In this document: positions 1,236-8,122 of the stretch, piece by piece
How positions within the stretch are numbered: position 1 is the first letter of the stretch
Layout: every line of letters starts with the position of its first letter
Origin: Chloroflexota bacterium
GTDB taxonomy: Bacteria; Chloroflexota; Anaerolineae; VGOG01
DNA: 8,122 bases
Assembly: GCA_030615705.1 (NCBI GenBank)
Contig: JAUWYT010000056.1
Coordinates: forward strand, 1-8,122
Direction: 5' to 3'
Notes under the pieces: generated by a model
The model's input: only the letters and a program-made list of their open reading frames with translations
Databases searched by the model: none
What the model was told of the DNA's origin: nothing
Made by a program: the position numbers and the translations under genes

Positions 1236-1262
1236 AGAGGCACAACGAAGGGAGGGATGCAA

Positions 1263-3002
1263 GTGGAGCCTAAAAAGAAAAGCAAGCGTACTCGCTGGAT
1301 TATCTTAGCTGCAGTGGCCGTGGTGGTTGTAGCAGCCGTTGTCTGGTTCGTCAATGAACGTCCCTTGGCACAGTTACAGCAACGCCCTGCCTCGGCGGCT
1401 AATCCGGAATTGGACCAGACCGTTACCGCTTTCATCGGCGACCTCTCCGCCGGGGCGACGGCCAGCGGCCGACTGCTCCCCCAGCGGGAAGCCCACCTGG
1501 CGTTAGCGATCGCTGGCCAGGTGGAAGAGGTCTACGTCCAGGTCGGCGACGAGGTACAGGCTAGCGATGTCCTGATCCAGTTGGAGTCCGGCAGCCTGCA
1601 GCGGGCGGCCCGCTCGGCGGAACAGAGCCTTGCCATCCAGGAAGCAAACCTGGCCGAACTGCGGCAAGGGGCTTCCGAGGAAGAGATAGCGGTCGCTGAA
1701 GCGACGCTAGACAGCGCTAAAGCCAGCATCGCCAACGCCCAGGCAGGGCTGACCAGCGCTCACAGTGCCCTGACCAAGGCCGAGCTCTCCCGTGACGCGC
1801 TGGCCGACGCCGACGTTACCGCGGAGGCGAACCTCAAGAGTGCGCAGGCCTCGTTAAGCAGCGCCCAGGCGCAGTTGGCCGCGCTGCTGGAGGGCGCCGA
1901 CGCCGAGACGGTGGAGCAGGCTCGCTTGAATTGGGAGCAGGCCAAGAACAGCCTGTGGAACGCCCAATTAGAACGAGATGCGGTGAAAGGCCGGCCGGGG
2001 ACTCCCCGATACGTTAGCACCCAAATGGAGATCGCGGTGGCCAACGCCGAGATCGCTGTCCGCGTGGCCGAGATCAGCTATTTGCAAGCCCAGGAGGGCG
2101 CGACAGAGGAGGCCATCACCTCGGCCAGGGCGACAGTGGCGTCGGCAGAGGCAGGGGTGACCAACGCCCAGGCACAGTTGGATGACGTAGACGATCAGAT
2201 CGCCCAGGCCGAGGCTGCCGTAGTCCAGGCAGAAGCTACGGTGGCGCAGGCCGAAGCAGGTGTGTTGCAAGCCGAGGCCGCAGTGGCCCAGGCGGAGGCC
2301 AACCTGGCGATCCTGCTTGCTGGCCCATCGGACGAAAAGATAGGCATTGCCAAGGCCCAGGTGGCGCAGGCGCGAATCGCCCTGGAAGATGCCCAGGGCA
2401 ACCTGGCCAAAGCCACGCTGGTGGCTCCCTTTGACGGTGTGGTGACAGACGTGTACGTCGCGGTCGGCGAATGGGCCAACGGGCTGGCAGTAGACCTGAT
2501 GGACACGGGTAGCCTGGAAGTGGTGCTGGACGTGGACGAGATAGACATCGGCGGCCTGGCGGTCGGACAACAGGCCGTCGTCACCCTGGAAACCTGGCCG
2601 GATGAAGAACTGACCGGAGAACTGGTCTCTATCGCTCCCAAAGCCAGGAGTGGCACCGAAATCGTGACTTACCAGGTCCATCTGAGCCTGGATACCGGTG
2701 AGCTGCCCATTCGCTCCGGCATGACGGCCAACGCCGAATTGGTCACCGCCAAACGGGAAAACGTGATCCTGGTCCCCAACCGGGCCATCACCGCCGACCG
2801 CCAGGCGGGCAAGTACTACGTCAACCTGGTTCAGGGCGACACAATTGTAAAGACGGAGGTCACGATAGGCCTGCGCGACAACAAAAATACCGAGATCACC
2901 AGCGGCCTGCAAGAGGGTGATAAACTGGCCATTGGTGAGGTTAGCGAAGTGTTGGACTTCACACAGGGGCCGCCAAGAGGCATGAGGGGGCTGGGTCATT
3001 GA
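1263..3002 (+). CDS. MacA/HlyD-like efflux periplasmic-adaptor-type subunit
   Basis: This is a membrane-fusion/adaptor subunit of an ABC exporter. Numbering here runs from the ATG at 1257. A basic N-terminus is followed by one transmembrane helix (about 14-32). Next come the first half of a lipoyl-like domain (about 80-112, [14 protein letters not shown]), a very long Ala/Gln/Glu-rich alpha-helical hairpin (about 113-383), the second lipoyl half ([20 protein letters not shown], about 388-407), and beta-barrel and membrane-proximal domains to the end. Residues 317-351 are five tandem heptads ([35 protein letters not shown]). At about 580 residues it is far longer than typical MacA (about 370), the excess lying in the hairpin. 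I chose the GTG at 1263 because GGAGGG (1251-1256) directly abuts the ATG at 1257 with no spacing but lies six bases before the GTG. The ATG remains possible and adds two residues. The gene overlaps the ATPase gene by four bases. Confidence 0.9.
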
Positions 3003-3682
3003 TCGAACTCACCGAGATTACCAAAGAGTACCAGATGGGAACGCAGACGGTTCACGCCCTGCGCGGGGTGGACTTGACTATCCAGGAAGGTGAGTTTGTG
3101 GCCATTATGGGCCCGTCCGGGTCCGGCAAGAGCACGCTGATGAACATGATTGGTTGCCTGGATCAACCCACCAGCGGCACGTACAAGCTGGACGGCATGG
3201 ACGTGAGTCAGATGAGCGACGACGACCTGGCTCGGGTGCGCAACAAGCGAATTGGGTTTGTCTTTCAGATCTACAACTTGTTGCCTCGCACGCCGGCCAT
3301 CAAGCAGGTGGGGTTGCCGCTGATGTATGCTGGTTATGGCCGGCGGGAACGGCGCCAACGGGCAGAGGAGGCACTGCGCGCGGTGGGCTTGGGAGACCGG
3401 ATCGACCACCGGCCGGACGAACTCTCGGGCGGAGAGCAACAGCGCGTGGCCATCGCCCGCGCCCTGGCAGTCTCTCCCAGCATCATCCTGGCCGACGAAC
3501 CTACCGGCAACCTGGACACGGCCTCGGGAGAAGAGATCCTGGACATCTTTGACGATTTGAACTCACGCGGCATCACCATGGTCATCGTCACCCACGATCC
3601 GGAAGTAGCCGAACGCGTCCGGCGGACGGTATATCTCAGAGATGGGCTGATCGAGAGTGATAAAAACAATGGGCATAAATGA
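2999..3682 (+). CDS. ABC transporter ATPase, MacB/LolD type
   Basis: This 227-residue protein is the cytoplasmic nucleotide-binding subunit that powers the exporter formed with the adjacent adaptor and permease. All ATPase motifs are intact: Walker [10 protein letters not shown] (38-46), Q-loop Q90, signature LSGGEQQR (142-149), Walker B IILADE (162-167) with catalytic E167, D-loop NLD (171-173), and switch histidine H199 in VTHD. The length and the NLLPR and LPLMYAG segments are typical of the MacB/LolD/FtsE group. Translation starts at TTG (2999-3001), which overlaps the adaptor stop codon TGA (3000-3002). GAGGGGG at 2984-2990 gives a ribosome binding site eight bases upstream. The overlap indicates translational coupling. 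It is a separate polypeptide from the permease, unlike the fused E. coli MacB. Confidence 0.96.
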
Positions 3683-3691
3683 GGGGGAAAC

Positions 3692-4915
3692 ATGAATCTG
3701 ACGGAAAGCCTTTTGACCGCCTTTGACAGCCTGCTGACCAACAAAATGCGTGCCGTACTGACCATGCTGGGCGTCATCATCGGCGTGGCTGCCGTGATCG
3801 CGCTGCTCGCCATCGGCAACGGCGTCAGTGCCTCCATCGAAAGCGAGATTCAAGCTATCGGTTCAAACCTGATTACGATAATGACGGATCAGGACAACAG
3901 CGATGGCTATCAGACCTTGAGCATGAGGGACGTAGAGATGATAGCGGATCCGTTCTACGCTCCGGCGGTGAAGGAAGTGGCAGCCGAGGTACGAGGCAAC
4001 CAGCAGGTGCTCCATAGCGGCCGGGATACCCTCGTCACCGTCGCCGGCGTCACCGCTAACTATTTTGGTGTTCGCAACCTGACCCTGGAATTGGGAGGTG
4101 GGCTGACGGAGAACGACGTGGATGCCAAAGCCAGGGTAGCCGTCCTGGGGGCCAACGTCGCAGACGATTTGTTCCCCGATGATGAATTCCCCATTGGCAA
4201 TGTCGTGAAAATCAGGGGTGTTCAGTACGAGGTGGTTGGCGTCCTGGCGAGCAAGGGCGGGATGGGGTTTATGAGTGAGGACGATCAGGTCTTTATGCCC
4301 CTCACGACAGCGCAGAGCCGGCTCTATCCCGTTCGCACCCGCAGCGGCGATCGGGCGGTGCATGCCATATATGGCCAGGCGCAGAGAGAAGAATTGATGG
4401 ACGATGCAACTGCGCAGATCAAAAAAGTGCTGCGCGAAAGTCATGACATCGCTTACCAGGCTGACGATGATTTCATCATCCTCAGCCAGACCGATATTCT
4501 GGCTGCGCTCGACGTCATCACCGGCGCCATCACCCTGTTCCTGGGAGCCATTGCTGGCATCTCGCTGGTGGTGGGCGGGATCGGGATCATGAACATCATG
4601 CTGGTGAGTGTGACGGAGCGGACGCGGGAGATCGGCATTCGCAAAGCAGTGGGCGCGCTCAAACGGGATATTCTGACCCAATTCTTGATCGAGTCGCTGG
4701 TGATGAGCCTGATAGGTGGCTTGCTGGGCATCGTCTTAGGGGTCATCACCTCCACTCTGATCGGCAACCTGTCCACCGATCTGACCCCCGTGGTGGACGT
4801 CGACACGGTGCTGATGGCCTCTGGCTTTGCCGCCGCCGTCGGGCTTGTCTTTGGCATCTATCCGGCCTGGCGAGCGGCCAGCCTGCGGCCCATTGAGGCG
4901 CTGCGGTATGAATAG
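3692..4915 (+). CDS. ABC transporter permease, MacB/FtsX type
   Basis: This 407-residue inner-membrane permease is the partner of the preceding ATPase. Its architecture is that of the MacB family. It has one N-terminal transmembrane helix (about 20-42, after NKMRAVLTMLGVIIG), a large extracytoplasmic MacB-type core domain (about 43-270), then three C-terminal helices (about 276-304, 332-356, 371-390) forming the FtsX domain. Family signatures are GGIGIMNIMLVSVTERTREI (295-314) and the C-terminal GIYPAWRAASLRPIEALRYE (388-407). MacB-type transporters work by mechanotransmission to export peptides, lipids or toxins from the extracytoplasmic side. The actual substrate here is unknown. The ribosome binding site GAGGGGG (3681-3687) overlaps the end of the ATPase gene, and the two genes are nine bases apart. 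Confidence 0.95.
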   Translation: MNLTESLLTAFDSLLTNKMRAVLTMLGVIIGVAAVIALLAIGNGVSASIESEIQAIGSNLITIMTDQDNSDGYQTLSMRDVEMIADPFYAPAVKEVAAEVRGNQQVLHSGRDTLVTVAGVTANYFGVRNLTLELGGGLTENDVDAKARVAVLGANVADDLFPDDEFPIGNVVKIRGVQYEVVGVLASKGGMGFMSEDDQVFMPLTTAQSRLYPVRTRSGDRAVHAIYGQAQREELMDDATAQIKKVLRESHDIAYQADDDFIILSQTDILAALDVITGAITLFLGAIAGISLVVGGIGIMNIMLVSVTERTREIGIRKAVGALKRDILTQFLIESLVMSLIGGLLGIVLGVITSTLIGNLSTDLTPVVDVDTVLMASGFAAAVGLVFGIYPAWRAASLRPIEALRYE

Positions 4916-4932: not shown

Positions 4933-5577
4933 ATGGGGACAATCATGACCAAACCAAATCAGAGTCTTAAGAGTCAGAGAGCCTGGCAGAGGCGCTACGA
5001 GCCTCTCGCGCCAAAAGTGGGAGACGTGGCTCCCGATTTCGAACTGCGCGACGTGAACGGCGAGAACGCGGTGCGTCTCTCGGACTTCAGGGGTAAAAAA
5101 CCGGTGGCTCTGGTCTTCGGGAGCTTCACCTGACCGCCCTTTGTCAAGGGGGCCGTGAGCCTCCGTGACTTGTACACTCAGTACAACGAGCGCGTGCAGT
5201 TCCTGGTCATTTACATTCGTGAGGCGCATCCGGAGGACGGATGGTCCCTCGGCAAGCTCAGCAGGTTGGGTAAACTCCCAGGTAAACTCGGTGGGCTTGC
5301 TGGGCACGTCAAGCAGGGGATCTACGACCCCCAGACCATCGAGGAGCGCAGGAAGGTCGCGGGGATGTGCGAGACAGCGCTGCAATATGGCATACGGACT
5401 TACGTGGACGAGATGGACGACGAGGTCATGACGGCCTACGCTGCCATGCCCGACCGGTTGTACCTCATCGGGCTGGATGGACGCGTGGTCTACGCCGGCG
5501 GTCAGGGGCCATTTGGGTTCAAGCCGGCAGAGCTAAAAGAGGCCATTGATGCTTATCTGAGCCAGGAAAAGGGGTAA
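4933..5577 (+). CDS. Deiodinase-family selenoprotein with in-frame TGA (Sec)
   Basis: This is one thioredoxin-fold gene of 214 residues, read through the TGA at 5131-5133 as selenocysteine 67. The sequence around it is GSFT-Sec-PPF, matching the GSCT-Sec-PPF active site of iodothyronine deiodinases. The N-terminal part (VGDVAPDFELRDVNG) is redoxin-like. YIREAHPEDGW (94-104) matches the deiodinase YIEEAHASDGW motif. Its E97 and H99 lie 30 and 32 residues after Sec, as do Glu200 and His202 after Sec170 in mammalian DIO3 (recalled). PDRLYLIGLDGRVVYAGGQG and a final ELKEAI helix complete the family pattern. There is no signal peptide or membrane anchor, so it is likely cytoplasmic. The cysteine two residues before Sec in many deiodinases is Phe65 here, and the only cysteine is C146. 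ATG 4945 is an alternative start. Both candidate ribosome binding sites are weak. The gene starts 17 bases after the permease stop and ends nine bases before the kinase. The reaction is unproven: reductive dehalogenation or a peroxide/thiol redox role are both possible. Standard annotation would wrongly split it at 5133 and 5155. Confidence 0.93.
5131..5169 (+). promoter_or_regulatory. Candidate bacterial SECIS element
   Basis: A hairpin follows the TGA within the coding sequence. The lower stem GUCA (5143-5146) pairs with UGAC (5166-5169). An A-G mismatch (5147/5165) follows. The upper stem GGGGGC (5148-5153) pairs with GCCUCC (5159-5164), including one G-U pair. The apical loop is CGUGA (5154-5158). 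The loop's second base, G5155, is 22 bases after the TGA. This fits the known bacterial SECIS rule of a G in the first two loop positions and a loop about 16-37 bases downstream. The GU in the loop recalls the E. coli fdhF contact with SelB, but there is no bulged U as in E. coli. A weaker competing hairpin (5137-5141 with 5146-5150) is also possible. Confidence 0.7.
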
Positions 5578-5586
5578 AGGTTCTCT

Positions 5587-6840
5587 ATGGAACAGCCATT
5601 GGCTGTGCGCGAGGCGCTGCGCATCTTTCGCCTGACACTGATCGTCAAGATAGCTTTCCTTAGCCTGGGCTTACTGGTGGCACTGGGGTTGGGAACATCA
5701 GCCCACTTGGCAATCCTGCTGCGCGCAGCCCCCACACTGCTGCTGGCCCTGCTGGTGCTGCCTCCCTGGCTGGAGCAGGCTCTGGGTCAGCGATTCCTGG
5801 CCCTGGCCCTGTGCCTGGACGTGCTCATTGAGAGCCTGCTATCAGTCCCCTTCTTTTTCGAGCGGCGGTTTTTCTGGCTCGAACACCTGGACTTGCCAGG
5901 GCCAGTGGGCCGTCACCTGATGGAAGCACCGCTGACGGAGCCCTTCTTTTTCTTGCTCATCCCCCTGGTGTTGCTGGCCTGGGGCTATGGCCGGCGGGGC
6001 GCTGTGTGGGGGAGCACCTGGGCCACGATTCTACACCTGGGCACCGGCTGTTGGGCATTGCAGCAGGACATCCTCGCTCGAGCCTTTTTCATGGGGGCGC
6101 TATCCCGCATTGCCCTGCTGTACCTGGTGCCCCTCATCGTCAGTATCCTGGCCCAGCGAGAGCGGCAGCAGCACGCCGAACTGGAAGCCGCCCACCAACG
6201 CCTGCGCCGCCATGCTGCCACCGTGGAGCAGTTGGCCGTCAGCCGCGAGCGGAACCGACTGGCCCGCGACCTGCACGACACGCTGGCCCATTCCCTGACC
6301 GCGTTGACTGTGCAACTGGAGGCGCTCCGCACCCTGATGGCCCACGATCCCGCCGTGGCCCAGGACGCCCTGAACGAGGTCTCGGCCCTGGCCCGAAACG
6401 GGCTGCAGGAGTCACGGCAGGCCATCCAGGCCCTGCGCACCGATCCCTTGAAGACGCTGGGCCTGGTCGGCGCGCTGCGGGGCACCCTCCAGGCTTTCCA
6501 GGCGCGGACCGGCGTGCAGGCTGACCTTAGCATAGCTGGCCAGGAGCCCGACCTGACGGATGAAGAAGTCCAGGCACTCTTCCGCATCGCCGAGGAGGCG
6601 CTGACCAACGTGGAGCGTCACGCCGCCGCCCAACAGGTGACCGTGCGCCTGGCCTTTGGCAACGACCGGATTGACCTGGTGGTCCGGGACGATGGTGTGG
6701 GCTTTGATCCCGCTGCCGTAGACCCTGACCGCTACGGCCTGACCGGGATACAAGAACGGGCGGCGATGATCGGGGCGACGCTTAAGGTGAGAGGCCGTCC
6801 TGGTGGCGGGACAGAGGTTCGGTGTTCGTTAGAAAGCTGA
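5587..6840 (+). CDS. Membrane sensor histidine kinase, HisKA_3 (NarL/DesK type)
   Basis: This 417-residue sensor kinase probably phosphorylates the regulator at 6909-7595. The N-terminus has about six hydrophobic segments (roughly 17-36, 40-60, 70-92, 118-135, 138-157, 165-189) with short loops. It probably senses something in or at the membrane, and there is no large extracytoplasmic domain. A short coiled coil (about 190-220) leads to the dimerisation/phosphoacceptor region SRERNRLARDLHDTLAHSL, with phosphoacceptor H230 in the HisKA_3 motif RDLHDTLAHSL. The HATPase domain carries the N-box EEALTNVERHA (336-346, N341), the G1 box DDGVGFD (368-374), the G2 region YGLTGIQERA (383-392) and GGGTEV (406-411). 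All catalytic motifs look intact. It begins nine bases after the selenoprotein gene, with AAGG (5577-5580) as the ribosome binding site. It is therefore likely cotranscribed with the exporter and selenoprotein. Confidence 0.95.
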   Translation: MEQPLAVREALRIFRLTLIVKIAFLSLGLLVALGLGTSAHLAILLRAAPTLLLALLVLPPWLEQALGQRFLALALCLDVLIESLLSVPFFFERRFFWLEHLDLPGPVGRHLMEAPLTEPFFFLLIPLVLLAWGYGRRGAVWGSTWATILHLGTGCWALQQDILARAFFMGALSRIALLYLVPLIVSILAQRERQQHAELEAAHQRLRRHAATVEQLAVSRERNRLARDLHDTLAHSLTALTVQLEALRTLMAHDPAVAQDALNEVSALARNGLQESRQAIQALRTDPLKTLGLVGALRGTLQAFQARTGVQADLSIAGQEPDLTDEEVQALFRIAEEALTNVERHAAAQQVTVRLAFGNDRIDLVVRDDGVGFDPAAVDPDRYGLTGIQERAAMIGATLKVRGRPGGGTEVRCSLES

Positions 6841-6908: not shown

Positions 6909-7595
6909 GTGAGTGCGATCCGGGTTCTCCTCGTAGACGACCAGGAGATCGTCCGCCAGGGGCTGACGACGATCCTCAAGTACGTGCCAGGGATCGAGGT
7001 GGTGGGTCAGGCCGGCGACGGGAAAGAGGCGGTGGCCCTGGCCCGCGCTCTCCGGCCCGATGTAGTGCTCATGGACCTGAAGATGCCTCGGCTGGGAGGC
7101 ATCCCGGCCACGCGGCACATCTGCGCGGAACTGCCCGCTACCCAGGTGATCATCCTTACTACGTACGATACCGACGATCTGGTCTTCGAGGGAATCAAAG
7201 CTGGGGCCAAGGGCTACCTGCTCAAGGACGCTACCGGCGAGACGCTGGTAGAGGCTATCCGGGGCGTGGTGCGGGGAGAATCGCGGGTTGATCACGGCGT
7301 GGCGCGCAAAGTGCTGAACGAGTTCCAGCGATTGGCGGCTCAGGCACCGGCCCGCCCCGCCGCCCGGTCGGCGCAGGACGAGCCCATCATCGAACCCCTC
7401 ACCCCCCGCGAGGAGGATGTGCTCCACCTGCTGGTTGAGGGGTTATCGAACAAGGAGATCGGTGCCCGGCTGCACCTGACCGAGGGCACCATCAAGAATT
7501 ACGTCAGCACCATCATCGCCAAGCTCCAGGCCAACGACCGGACGCATGCTGTGGTCACCGCCCTGCGGCACGGTCTGGTGGATCTGGGTAACTAA
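6909..7595 (+). CDS. NarL/FixJ-family response regulator
   Basis: This 228-residue two-component response regulator is the probable partner of the preceding HisKA_3 kinase. The receiver domain (about 4-120) has the acidic pair D10-D11, phosphoacceptor D56 in VVLMDLKMP, conserved T84 in the LTTY segment, and K106 in GYLLKDA. An Ala/Pro/Arg-rich linker (about 143-160) joins a LuxR-type helix-turn-helix domain (about 163-223), with LTPREEDVLHLLVEGLSNKE and the recognition-helix region LTEGTIKNYVSTIIAKL. Phosphorylation is expected to promote dimerisation and DNA binding. Translation starts at GTG 6909, with AAAGGTG (6895-6900 region) about eight bases upstream. Plausible targets are the repeats at 1172-1218 ahead of the exporter operon, which would make the system autoregulatory. 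That link is inferred. Confidence 0.96.
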   Translation: MSAIRVLLVDDQEIVRQGLTTILKYVPGIEVVGQAGDGKEAVALARALRPDVVLMDLKMPRLGGIPATRHICAELPATQVIILTTYDTDDLVFEGIKAGAKGYLLKDATGETLVEAIRGVVRGESRVDHGVARKVLNEFQRLAAQAPARPAARSAQDEPIIEPLTPREEDVLHLLVEGLSNKEIGARLHLTEGTIKNYVSTIIAKLQANDRTHAVVTALRHGLVDLGN

Positions 7596-7740: not shown

Positions 7741-7846
7741 AATGACCCACAACGACCGTCGTATCTGCTTCAAGTCTGCCTCTCCACTACGCCAATCTAC
7801 CCCTCCGTCAACAACCCTCCCGCAGGTTTGGAACCTGCGGGAGGGT
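7741..7846. repeat. Left copy of a 106-bp perfect inverted repeat
   Basis: All 106 bases are the exact reverse complement of 8013-8118. Outside the perfect part, one mismatch (7740/8119) is followed by three more matching bases (7737-7739 with 8120-8122), so the repeat probably continues beyond the window. The inner end carries its own palindrome: 7812-7828 pairs with 7832-7848 around TGG (CCCTCCCGCAGGTT and its complement). It looks like one arm of a MITE-like element, or one of two copies of an interspersed repeat in opposite orientation. No transposase is present. Confidence 0.85.
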
Positions 7847-7852
7847 TGCGAC

Positions 7853-7972: not shown

Positions 7973-8012
7973 GTTCAGCGGACGTGCAGATAGACGCGCT
8001 GATGTCTGCCTG

Positions 8013-8118
8013 ACCCTCCCGCAGGTTCCAAACCTGCGGGAGGGTTGTTGACGGAGGGGTAGATTGGCGTAGTGGAGAGGCAGACTTGAAGCAGATACGA
8101 CGGTCGTTGTGGGTCATT
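8013..8118. repeat. Right copy of a 106-bp perfect inverted repeat
   Basis: This is the exact reverse complement of 7741-7846, with a spacer of 166 bases (7847-8012) between the copies. It carries the same internal palindrome (8014-8027 with 8031-8044, loop CCA). Open frames across it on the minus strand mirror those across the left copy, which shows that they are a product of the repeat and not genes. Confidence 0.85.
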
Positions 8119-8122
8119 GTCC

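Follow-up and report, generated by a model that had tools for sequence, protein, structure and literature searches.

A predicted deiodinase-like selenoprotein gene with an in-frame UGA codon in a draft Chloroflexota genome

The window analyzed in this study is a stretch of 8,122 nucleotides (nt) of contig JAUWYT010000056.1, from a Chloroflexota bacterium of the class Anaerolineae (assembly GCA_030615705.1). It carries on the forward strand a gene (4945-5577) in which an in-frame TGA occupies the position of the catalytic residue in a deiodinase domain. We consider it probable, at about 0.87, that this codon is decoded as selenocysteine (Sec) with the aid of a hairpin at 5143-5169 and that the gene produces one protein of 210 residues. 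An earlier note, made from the letters of this DNA, had likewise predicted that the TGA encodes Sec. That prediction is supported because the TGA column is conserved among relatives, with cysteine (Cys) as the remaining state, because the hairpin, which is of the bacterial selenocysteine insertion sequence (bSECIS) type, covaries, and because selA is present in the organism's own genome and tRNA-Sec, selB and selD are present in most of the relatives searched. Selenocysteine insertion is therefore predicted with high confidence. The result is a bacterial relative of the thyroid-hormone deiodinases that is anchored in a genome and for which codon, SECIS and fold evidence can be combined.

Catalytic UGA codon and downstream hairpin

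Translation of positions 4933-5577 of the forward strand yields 214 residues with a single internal stop, the TGA at 5131-5133, and a terminal TAA at 5575-5577. The two in-frame pieces described in the earlier note are parted by this TGA and by no other stop, and the joined frame reads GSFT-U-PPF, then YIREAHPEDGW and then PDRLYLIGLDGRVVYAG, which is the deiodinase motif order exactly as it had been given. The proposal of one protein of 214 residues stands as a reading of the joined frame, but its length should probably be revised. The sequence GGGGA (4935-4939), read as the likely ribosome-binding site, lies 5 nt upstream of ATG 4945, and some relatives (e.g., the database entry P0004) begin at the same point; ATG 4945 is therefore a likelier start than the alternative at 4933. 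From ATG 4945 the product would have 210 residues and the UGA, the predicted selenocysteine codon, is codon 63 (67 from 4933).

The catalytic column was followed in two scans. A scan of 298 genomes of the same class gave some match in 147 of them, mostly weak matches to other redoxins. Each of the 11 strong full-length matches (E of 1e-22 or better, the window gene included) has exactly one internal stop, and this stop is TGA. A twelfth copy, L023 (G294:C231), has lost the active-site stretch and carries an in-frame TAG; its genome, G294, has tRNA-Sec yet is not among the SelB-positive genomes. Genome contigs were also scanned with an alignment of 11 sequences, which gave 140 relatives, of which 80 were kept and 79 cover the catalytic column. 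The codon is TGA in 71 of these 79 loci, Cys in eight (six TGC and two TGT) and TGG in none. The 71 comprise 70 loci read directly and L097, in which the best frame shows TTG at the column as the artefact of a one-base frame slip just past a TGA. Because one of the two search patterns held Cys codons, the bias of the contig scan, if any, is towards Cys. The counts of the two scans are not additive, since some loci are the same contigs (e.g., L062 and G243:C232). The expectation that homologs would have Cys or Sec in this column is thus borne out at the level of the genomes.

The predicted bSECIS hairpin (5143-5169, forward strand) folds with a two-part stem, in which the lower part pairs 5143-5146 with 5166-5169 and the upper part pairs 5148-5153 with 5159-5164. 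It has the arrangement of such elements, a hairpin just after the UGA with a G in a small apical loop; the loop, CGUGA (5154-5158), begins 20 nt past the UGA. Selection on this structure beyond codon choice is indicated by a synonymous-codon test on nt 17-37 in 71 Sec genes (the window gene and 70 loci, with L097 left out). This segment folds better than its synonymous replacements in 67 of the 71 genes (mean z of -2.37), with 43 of the 71 at p<=0.05, and the window gene itself has a z of -2.35 (p of 0.040). Two segments further downstream in the Sec genes give -0.10 and -0.14. The eight Cys genes present no clear excess (mean z of -0.39, six of eight below zero, none at p<=0.05). In the 31 sequences nearest the window gene, picked without regard to folding, the upper stem is paired in 91.4% of cells, compared with 28-59% when the stem is slid. 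Pair 22-30 in these sequences varies among AU (21), GC (7) and GU (3), even though position 30 is, for the most part, a synonymous third position. Fifteen of the 31 sequences have the outermost pair, 18-34, disrupted. For 16 sequences of the Planctomycetota type, pairing reaches 94.8% in a stem shifted by one register, a figure that is biased upwards because 14 of the 16 were chosen for their best score in that register. Over all 71 Sec genes the best stem registers fall into three main classes of 37, 14 and 12 genes, with eight elsewhere. A simple scan for perfect stems gives a less clear picture and places the best loop 16-37 nt past the UGA in 56 of the 71 Sec genes and in five of the eight Cys genes. 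The relatives are not mutually independent, so these statistics describe a pattern and not exact probabilities. Planctomycetota members (L111, L117, L118, L119, L123 and others) have the hairpin in other registers, with a loop GGUC or with GGC or GGU closer to the UGA, so that several bSECIS geometries seem to be in use within a single family. A search of the window against Rfam gave no match at the gathering score.

Decoding machinery and alternatives to selenocysteine

The draft genome to which the window belongs totals 1.9 Mb, divided among 322 contigs, and is 79.6% complete. It encodes SelA (511.8 bits), the gene of which is cut by a contig end. Two other genomes of the same family, of 3.4 and 4.3 Mb, both have SelB and a SelD with an in-frame TGA, and one of them has tRNA-Sec. 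Among ten other genomes of the class that carry a TGA deiodinase gene, SelB was found in nine (not in G188), tRNA-Sec in eight (not in G188 or G095) and SelD in nine (not in G084). All 10 tRNA-Sec genes found among the 13 genomes searched have the TCA anticodon. SelD has an in-frame TGA in all 11 relatives in which it was found (L143-L151, L153 and L154, out of 12 searched; in two pieces in G243 and incomplete in G047), and the SelD of this class is therefore probably itself a selenoprotein. Because SelB is present in 239 of the 298 class genomes anyway, its co-occurrence with the deiodinase-like gene is background and counts as weak evidence. A search of the window's genome with PF00578 for a second selenoprotein found nothing beyond the gene described here.

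Several observations weigh against the decoding of the TGA as Sec in one deiodinase-like protein. Of the four genes that the earlier note had named for the source genome, selA was found, but searches of the 79.6% complete draft gave no selB, selC or selD. The best SelB match scored 106.3 bits against a cut-off of 242 and the best SelD match 79.7 against 125. For tRNA-Sec (selC) there were 13 matches, of which one exceeded the Rfam cut-off (49.5 vs. 47) and was rejected because ARAGORN reads it as a tRNA-Ser with the anticodon TGA; eight of the 13 are Ser, Arg, Leu or Asp tRNAs, and the other five score 29-31 bits. The three absences would be most simply explained by missing sequence. The loss of a segment with selA beside selB was considered as their cause and dismissed, as relatives show no selA within about 1.5 kb of selB (12 loci) or of the tRNA-Sec gene (10 loci); the three genes need not have gone missing with a single segment. 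Moreover, no deiodinase-like gene was found in either of the two same-family genomes. Taken as a single sequence, the window hairpin region folds weakly better than its dinucleotide shuffles (z of -0.8 to -1.7), and the perfect-stem scan favors another hairpin in the window gene, 9 nt past the UGA. Finally, in the structural model, loop residues 103-127 fall below 50 in the predicted local distance difference test (pLDDT).

These points have to be set against the alternatives. A nonsense mutation or a sequencing error in a decayed gene would also place a TGA within a frame, and decay does occur in this family, as the G294 copy demonstrates. For the window copy we reject decay and consider both a nonsense mutation and a sequencing error very improbable, given that TGA occupies this codon in 71 of 79 loci across many assemblies and phyla, that the frame remains open for 104 to 442 codons beyond the column in the 78 loci followed, and that more than half of the differences between the window gene and nine relatives lie at codon position 3 on both sides of the UGA, after it as well as before it. 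Alternatively, UGA may have been reassigned to tryptophan (Trp) or glycine in this organism, so that the residue would not be selenocysteine. The protein database appears at first sight to favor such a reading. Of 1661 homologs, 120 were listed and 30 of those listed were compared; among them, 20 are full-length proteins with Trp at the column, 10 are C-terminal pieces that begin past the UGA, and none carries Sec. Gene finders can fall back on genetic code 4, and Trp on short contigs is expected from that practice. The contigs of all 20 Trp entries are shorter than 2.8 kb, and none of the 79 genome loci has TGG; therefore, these entries are most likely UGA codons mistranslated as Trp by code 4, and a real Trp at the column is rejected. 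The occurrence of Trp in every full-length homolog compared (hits P0003-P0032) looks like a systematic database error. The earlier note had held that homologs with neither Cys nor Sec would count against it; the seeming Trp entries are of that kind on paper, but the genome loci are not. Furthermore, TGA is the own final stop of 34 of the 70 relatives with TGA at the column, and it is the terminal codon of three other genes of the window (3000-3002, 3680-3682 and 6838-6840). UGA is thus not generally reassigned, as had been argued from the three window genes, and with eight Cys loci in the same column we give reassignment almost no credence.

The third alternative is that the UGA mostly terminates translation, so that the short redoxin piece and a 140-residue piece starting at GTG 5155 are separate products, or that the codon serves as a switch that responds to selenium. 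Sec codons usually cause some termination, and the second piece has been entered in the protein database as a gene of its own. This entry (P0002) has 140 residues, is 97% identical and starts where GTG 5155 lies, so that the false gene anticipated by the earlier note does exist in the database. However, the first piece stops immediately ahead of the catalytic residue, which is missing from the second as well, so that neither contains the whole domain. The hairpin, moreover, is selected beyond codon choice. We consider predominant termination improbable, and selenocysteine decoding remains our interpretation of the UGA. The case also illustrates a route of mis-annotation in which, among the homologs compared, a predicted Sec codon leads to Trp at the column or to C-terminal pieces and in no entry to Sec.

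Protein family, active site and possible function

The joined protein matches the Pfam family T4_deiodinase (PF00837) over residues 27-206 with 104.5 bits against a cut-off of 27, as the earlier note had foreseen, and weaker AhpC-TSA and Redoxin matches cover the first part of the protein. The nearest solved structures by sequence are mouse DIO3 (5.1e-23) and DIO2 (1.9e-16), aligned through the active-site motif, and the modelled fold is likewise nearest to the catalytic domains of mouse DIO3 and DIO2. Sequence, domain and fold thus agree on the deiodinase assignment made from the letters, which requires one qualification. By reading, 22 to 26 mostly polar residues stand ahead of the domain, where no N-terminal transmembrane segment is seen. 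Because the animal-type membrane anchor is absent, "deiodinase-like" is the proper name, and because there is no hydrophobic segment ahead of the domain, the protein is likely to be cytosolic. As a separate observation, several weak matches of the class scan (L029, L032, L035 and others) resemble redoxins and have an in-frame TGA that follows the Thr or Met of the active site; TGA-bearing proteins of this kind recur in the class and include a GSFT-U-PITIGS form near the deiodinase family.

The active-site network known from the animal enzymes is largely retained. The segment YIREAHPEDGW (5212-5244, forward strand) is the start of the deiodinase-specific loop, and its residues Tyr94, Glu97, His99 and Trp104 (numbered from 4933) align with Tyr157, Glu160, His162 and Trp167 of Dio2, residues for which active-site roles have been described (PMC11592359, in the part available to us). 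Among 56 aligned rows, Ser64 is kept in 55, Thr66 in 55, Tyr94 in 56, Glu97 in 56, His99 in 55 and Trp104 in 52. As to the second loop His of the animal enzyme (Dio2 His182), the window protein has a His at 125 that lies in the poorly modelled loop and is not conserved among its relatives, and positions 132-136 are rarely His. A further conserved residue is Cys146 (Cys142 from 4945; codon 5368-5370, forward strand), which is Cys in 50 of the 56 aligned proteins and is possibly a resolving cysteine.

In the proposed mechanism, Sec-tRNA-Sec would be formed from Ser-tRNA-Sec by SelA and brought to the UGA by hairpin-bound SelB. The product is likely to be a redox enzyme that has the peroxiredoxin/deiodinase fold and depends on thiols, although thiol-dependent reduction is assigned as its function with low confidence. 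Catalysis would begin with an attack of the residue-63 selenolate on an oxidized or halogenated substrate, assisted by the conserved active-site network (Ser, Thr, Tyr, Glu, His and Trp), after which thiols, perhaps via Cys142, would regenerate the enzyme. Thyroid hormone is not expected as a substrate, and we favor a peroxide, a disulfide or another small oxidant over an iodinated phenol. A reading compatible with Sec decoding is that the protein is a true reductive dehalogenase of iodinated or brominated aromatics, to which the rank of DIO3 and DIO2 as nearest by fold and sequence and the conservation of Ser64, Thr66, Tyr94, Glu97, His99 and Trp104 would point; we consider this unlikely. Similarly improbable is a broader proposition, in which a large and mostly Sec-containing bacterial deiodinase-like family, hidden by split calls and false Trp, spreads as a single gene among Chloroflexota, Planctomycetota and other phyla. 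Its members, with a nearly full active-site network but no membrane anchor, would act in soluble form as reductive dehalogenases on natural compounds that carry iodine or bromine, and it is from this chemistry that the animal thyroid enzymes would descend. Soluble bacterial members should pose fewer difficulties in expression than the membrane enzymes and may reveal the chemistry of the deiodinase active site before thyroid hormone.

Genomic setting and comparison with known systems

According to Pfam, the gene is preceded on the same strand by macA (1257-3002), the macB ATPase gene (2999-3682) and the macB permease gene (3692-4915) and is followed by genes of a histidine kinase (5587-6840) and a LuxR-type response regulator (6909-7595), also on the forward strand; a GNAT acetyltransferase gene (326-1165, PF00583) lies upstream of macA. 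The end of the permease gene is 29 nt from ATG 4945 (17 nt from ATG 4933), and the histidine kinase gene begins 9 nt past the selenoprotein gene. This spacing suggests that the mac genes and the selenoprotein gene share one operon, without a functional tie. Near the contig end, at about 7741-7849 and 8012-8120, near-identical inverted copies were noticed by reading, with the same short peptide on both strands; they are likely a repeat that halted the assembly.

The MacAB and two-component neighbors do not travel with the selenoprotein gene. In the loci of the 80 relatives (flanks of up to 5 kb, many of them shorter), five weak matches to the neighbors of the window were found, four to the MacB ATPase and one to the regulator, and no match to MacA or to this kinase. 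Conversely, 24 other permease matches that were fetched have the MacB ATPase in all 24 and a detected MacA in 23. None shows the selenoprotein gene next to the permease, in a visible downstream sequence that amounts to about 1.5 kb for 21 of them and about 0.5 kb for L168 and is nil for L172 and L173, whose contigs end there. In L171 the kinase and regulator directly follow the permease, so that the selenoprotein gene looks inserted in the window. The flanks of 33 close loci hold 54 genes, 37 of them on the same strand. Among the 36 same-strand genes compared with Pfam (one large gene of L090 was left out), the commonest family, PF01553, occurs just four times; the neighbors thus give no lead to function.

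In a tree of 79 proteins, with a midpoint root used for drawing only, the window gene belongs to a clade of 37 rows that holds Sec forms alone and has a support of 100/99. The clade is mainly Chloroflexota, with Poribacteria, Latescibacterota and others interspersed, and the Cys form takes six changes on the tree. This pattern fits the spread of a single gene between lineages, and foreign contigs in bins could add to it. No relatives were found on viral contigs.

The published bacterial relatives come from marine metagenomes. Sargasso Sea data (PMC1088965, 2005) gave bacterial deiodinase-like sequences with Sec and Cys and with a bacterial SECIS element, four Sec and six Cys by its table rows, for which a redox role was suggested, and Global Ocean Sampling data (PMC2398784, 2008) gave 22 Sec and 21 Cys forms by its table rows, in a table without a motif. 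As these sources present them, the members share with the window gene PF00837, Sec or Cys at the catalytic position and a bacterial SECIS after the UGA; they are metagenome data without assigned species, whereas the window gene lies in a binned genome. Two reviews (PMC9312934 and PMC13188914) give the family a UxxC motif in the passages available. The window protein instead reads U-P-P-F, and the published sources disagree on the motif; with none given in the 2008 table, UxxC is a doubtful hallmark of the family. PMC9402790 describes a deiodinase-like fusion with EF-hands, and for single-cell genomes of Anaerolineales PMC4959059 records Sec, as annotation, in formate dehydrogenases. Deiodinase is absent from the main text of a report on Planctomycetes selenoproteins (PMC4807772), and a literature search linking deiodinase with Chloroflex* or Planctomycetes gave, among the matches listed, no title on this bacterial family.

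The 'deiodinase family protein' model NF038285 scores 195.5 bits, below its cut-off of 250. Model positions 176-340, its second half, are common to the window protein and the first 175 positions are unmatched; each half of the split gene alone matches the model, both in one common register. The peroxiredoxins AhpE and BCP lack, to our knowledge, the deiodinase-specific loop. Their structures (1xxu and 3drn) score below those of DIO3 and DIO2. With mouse DIO3 and DIO2 (PDB 4tr3 and 9h48), the window protein has in common GSxT-U-PPF, the loop start YIxEAHPxDGW and the fold, but it has no membrane anchor, and its SECIS element is of the bacterial and not the eukaryotic kind. The residue before the Thr is Phe in the window protein, compared with GSCT in DIO3 and GSAT in DIO2. 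Cys146 is without a clear counterpart, because it aligns with a Leu in DIO3 and with a Cys beside an eight-residue gap in DIO2. Bacterial deiodinase-like selenoproteins have been in print since 2005, and the window gene is a further, often mis-annotated member of this group.
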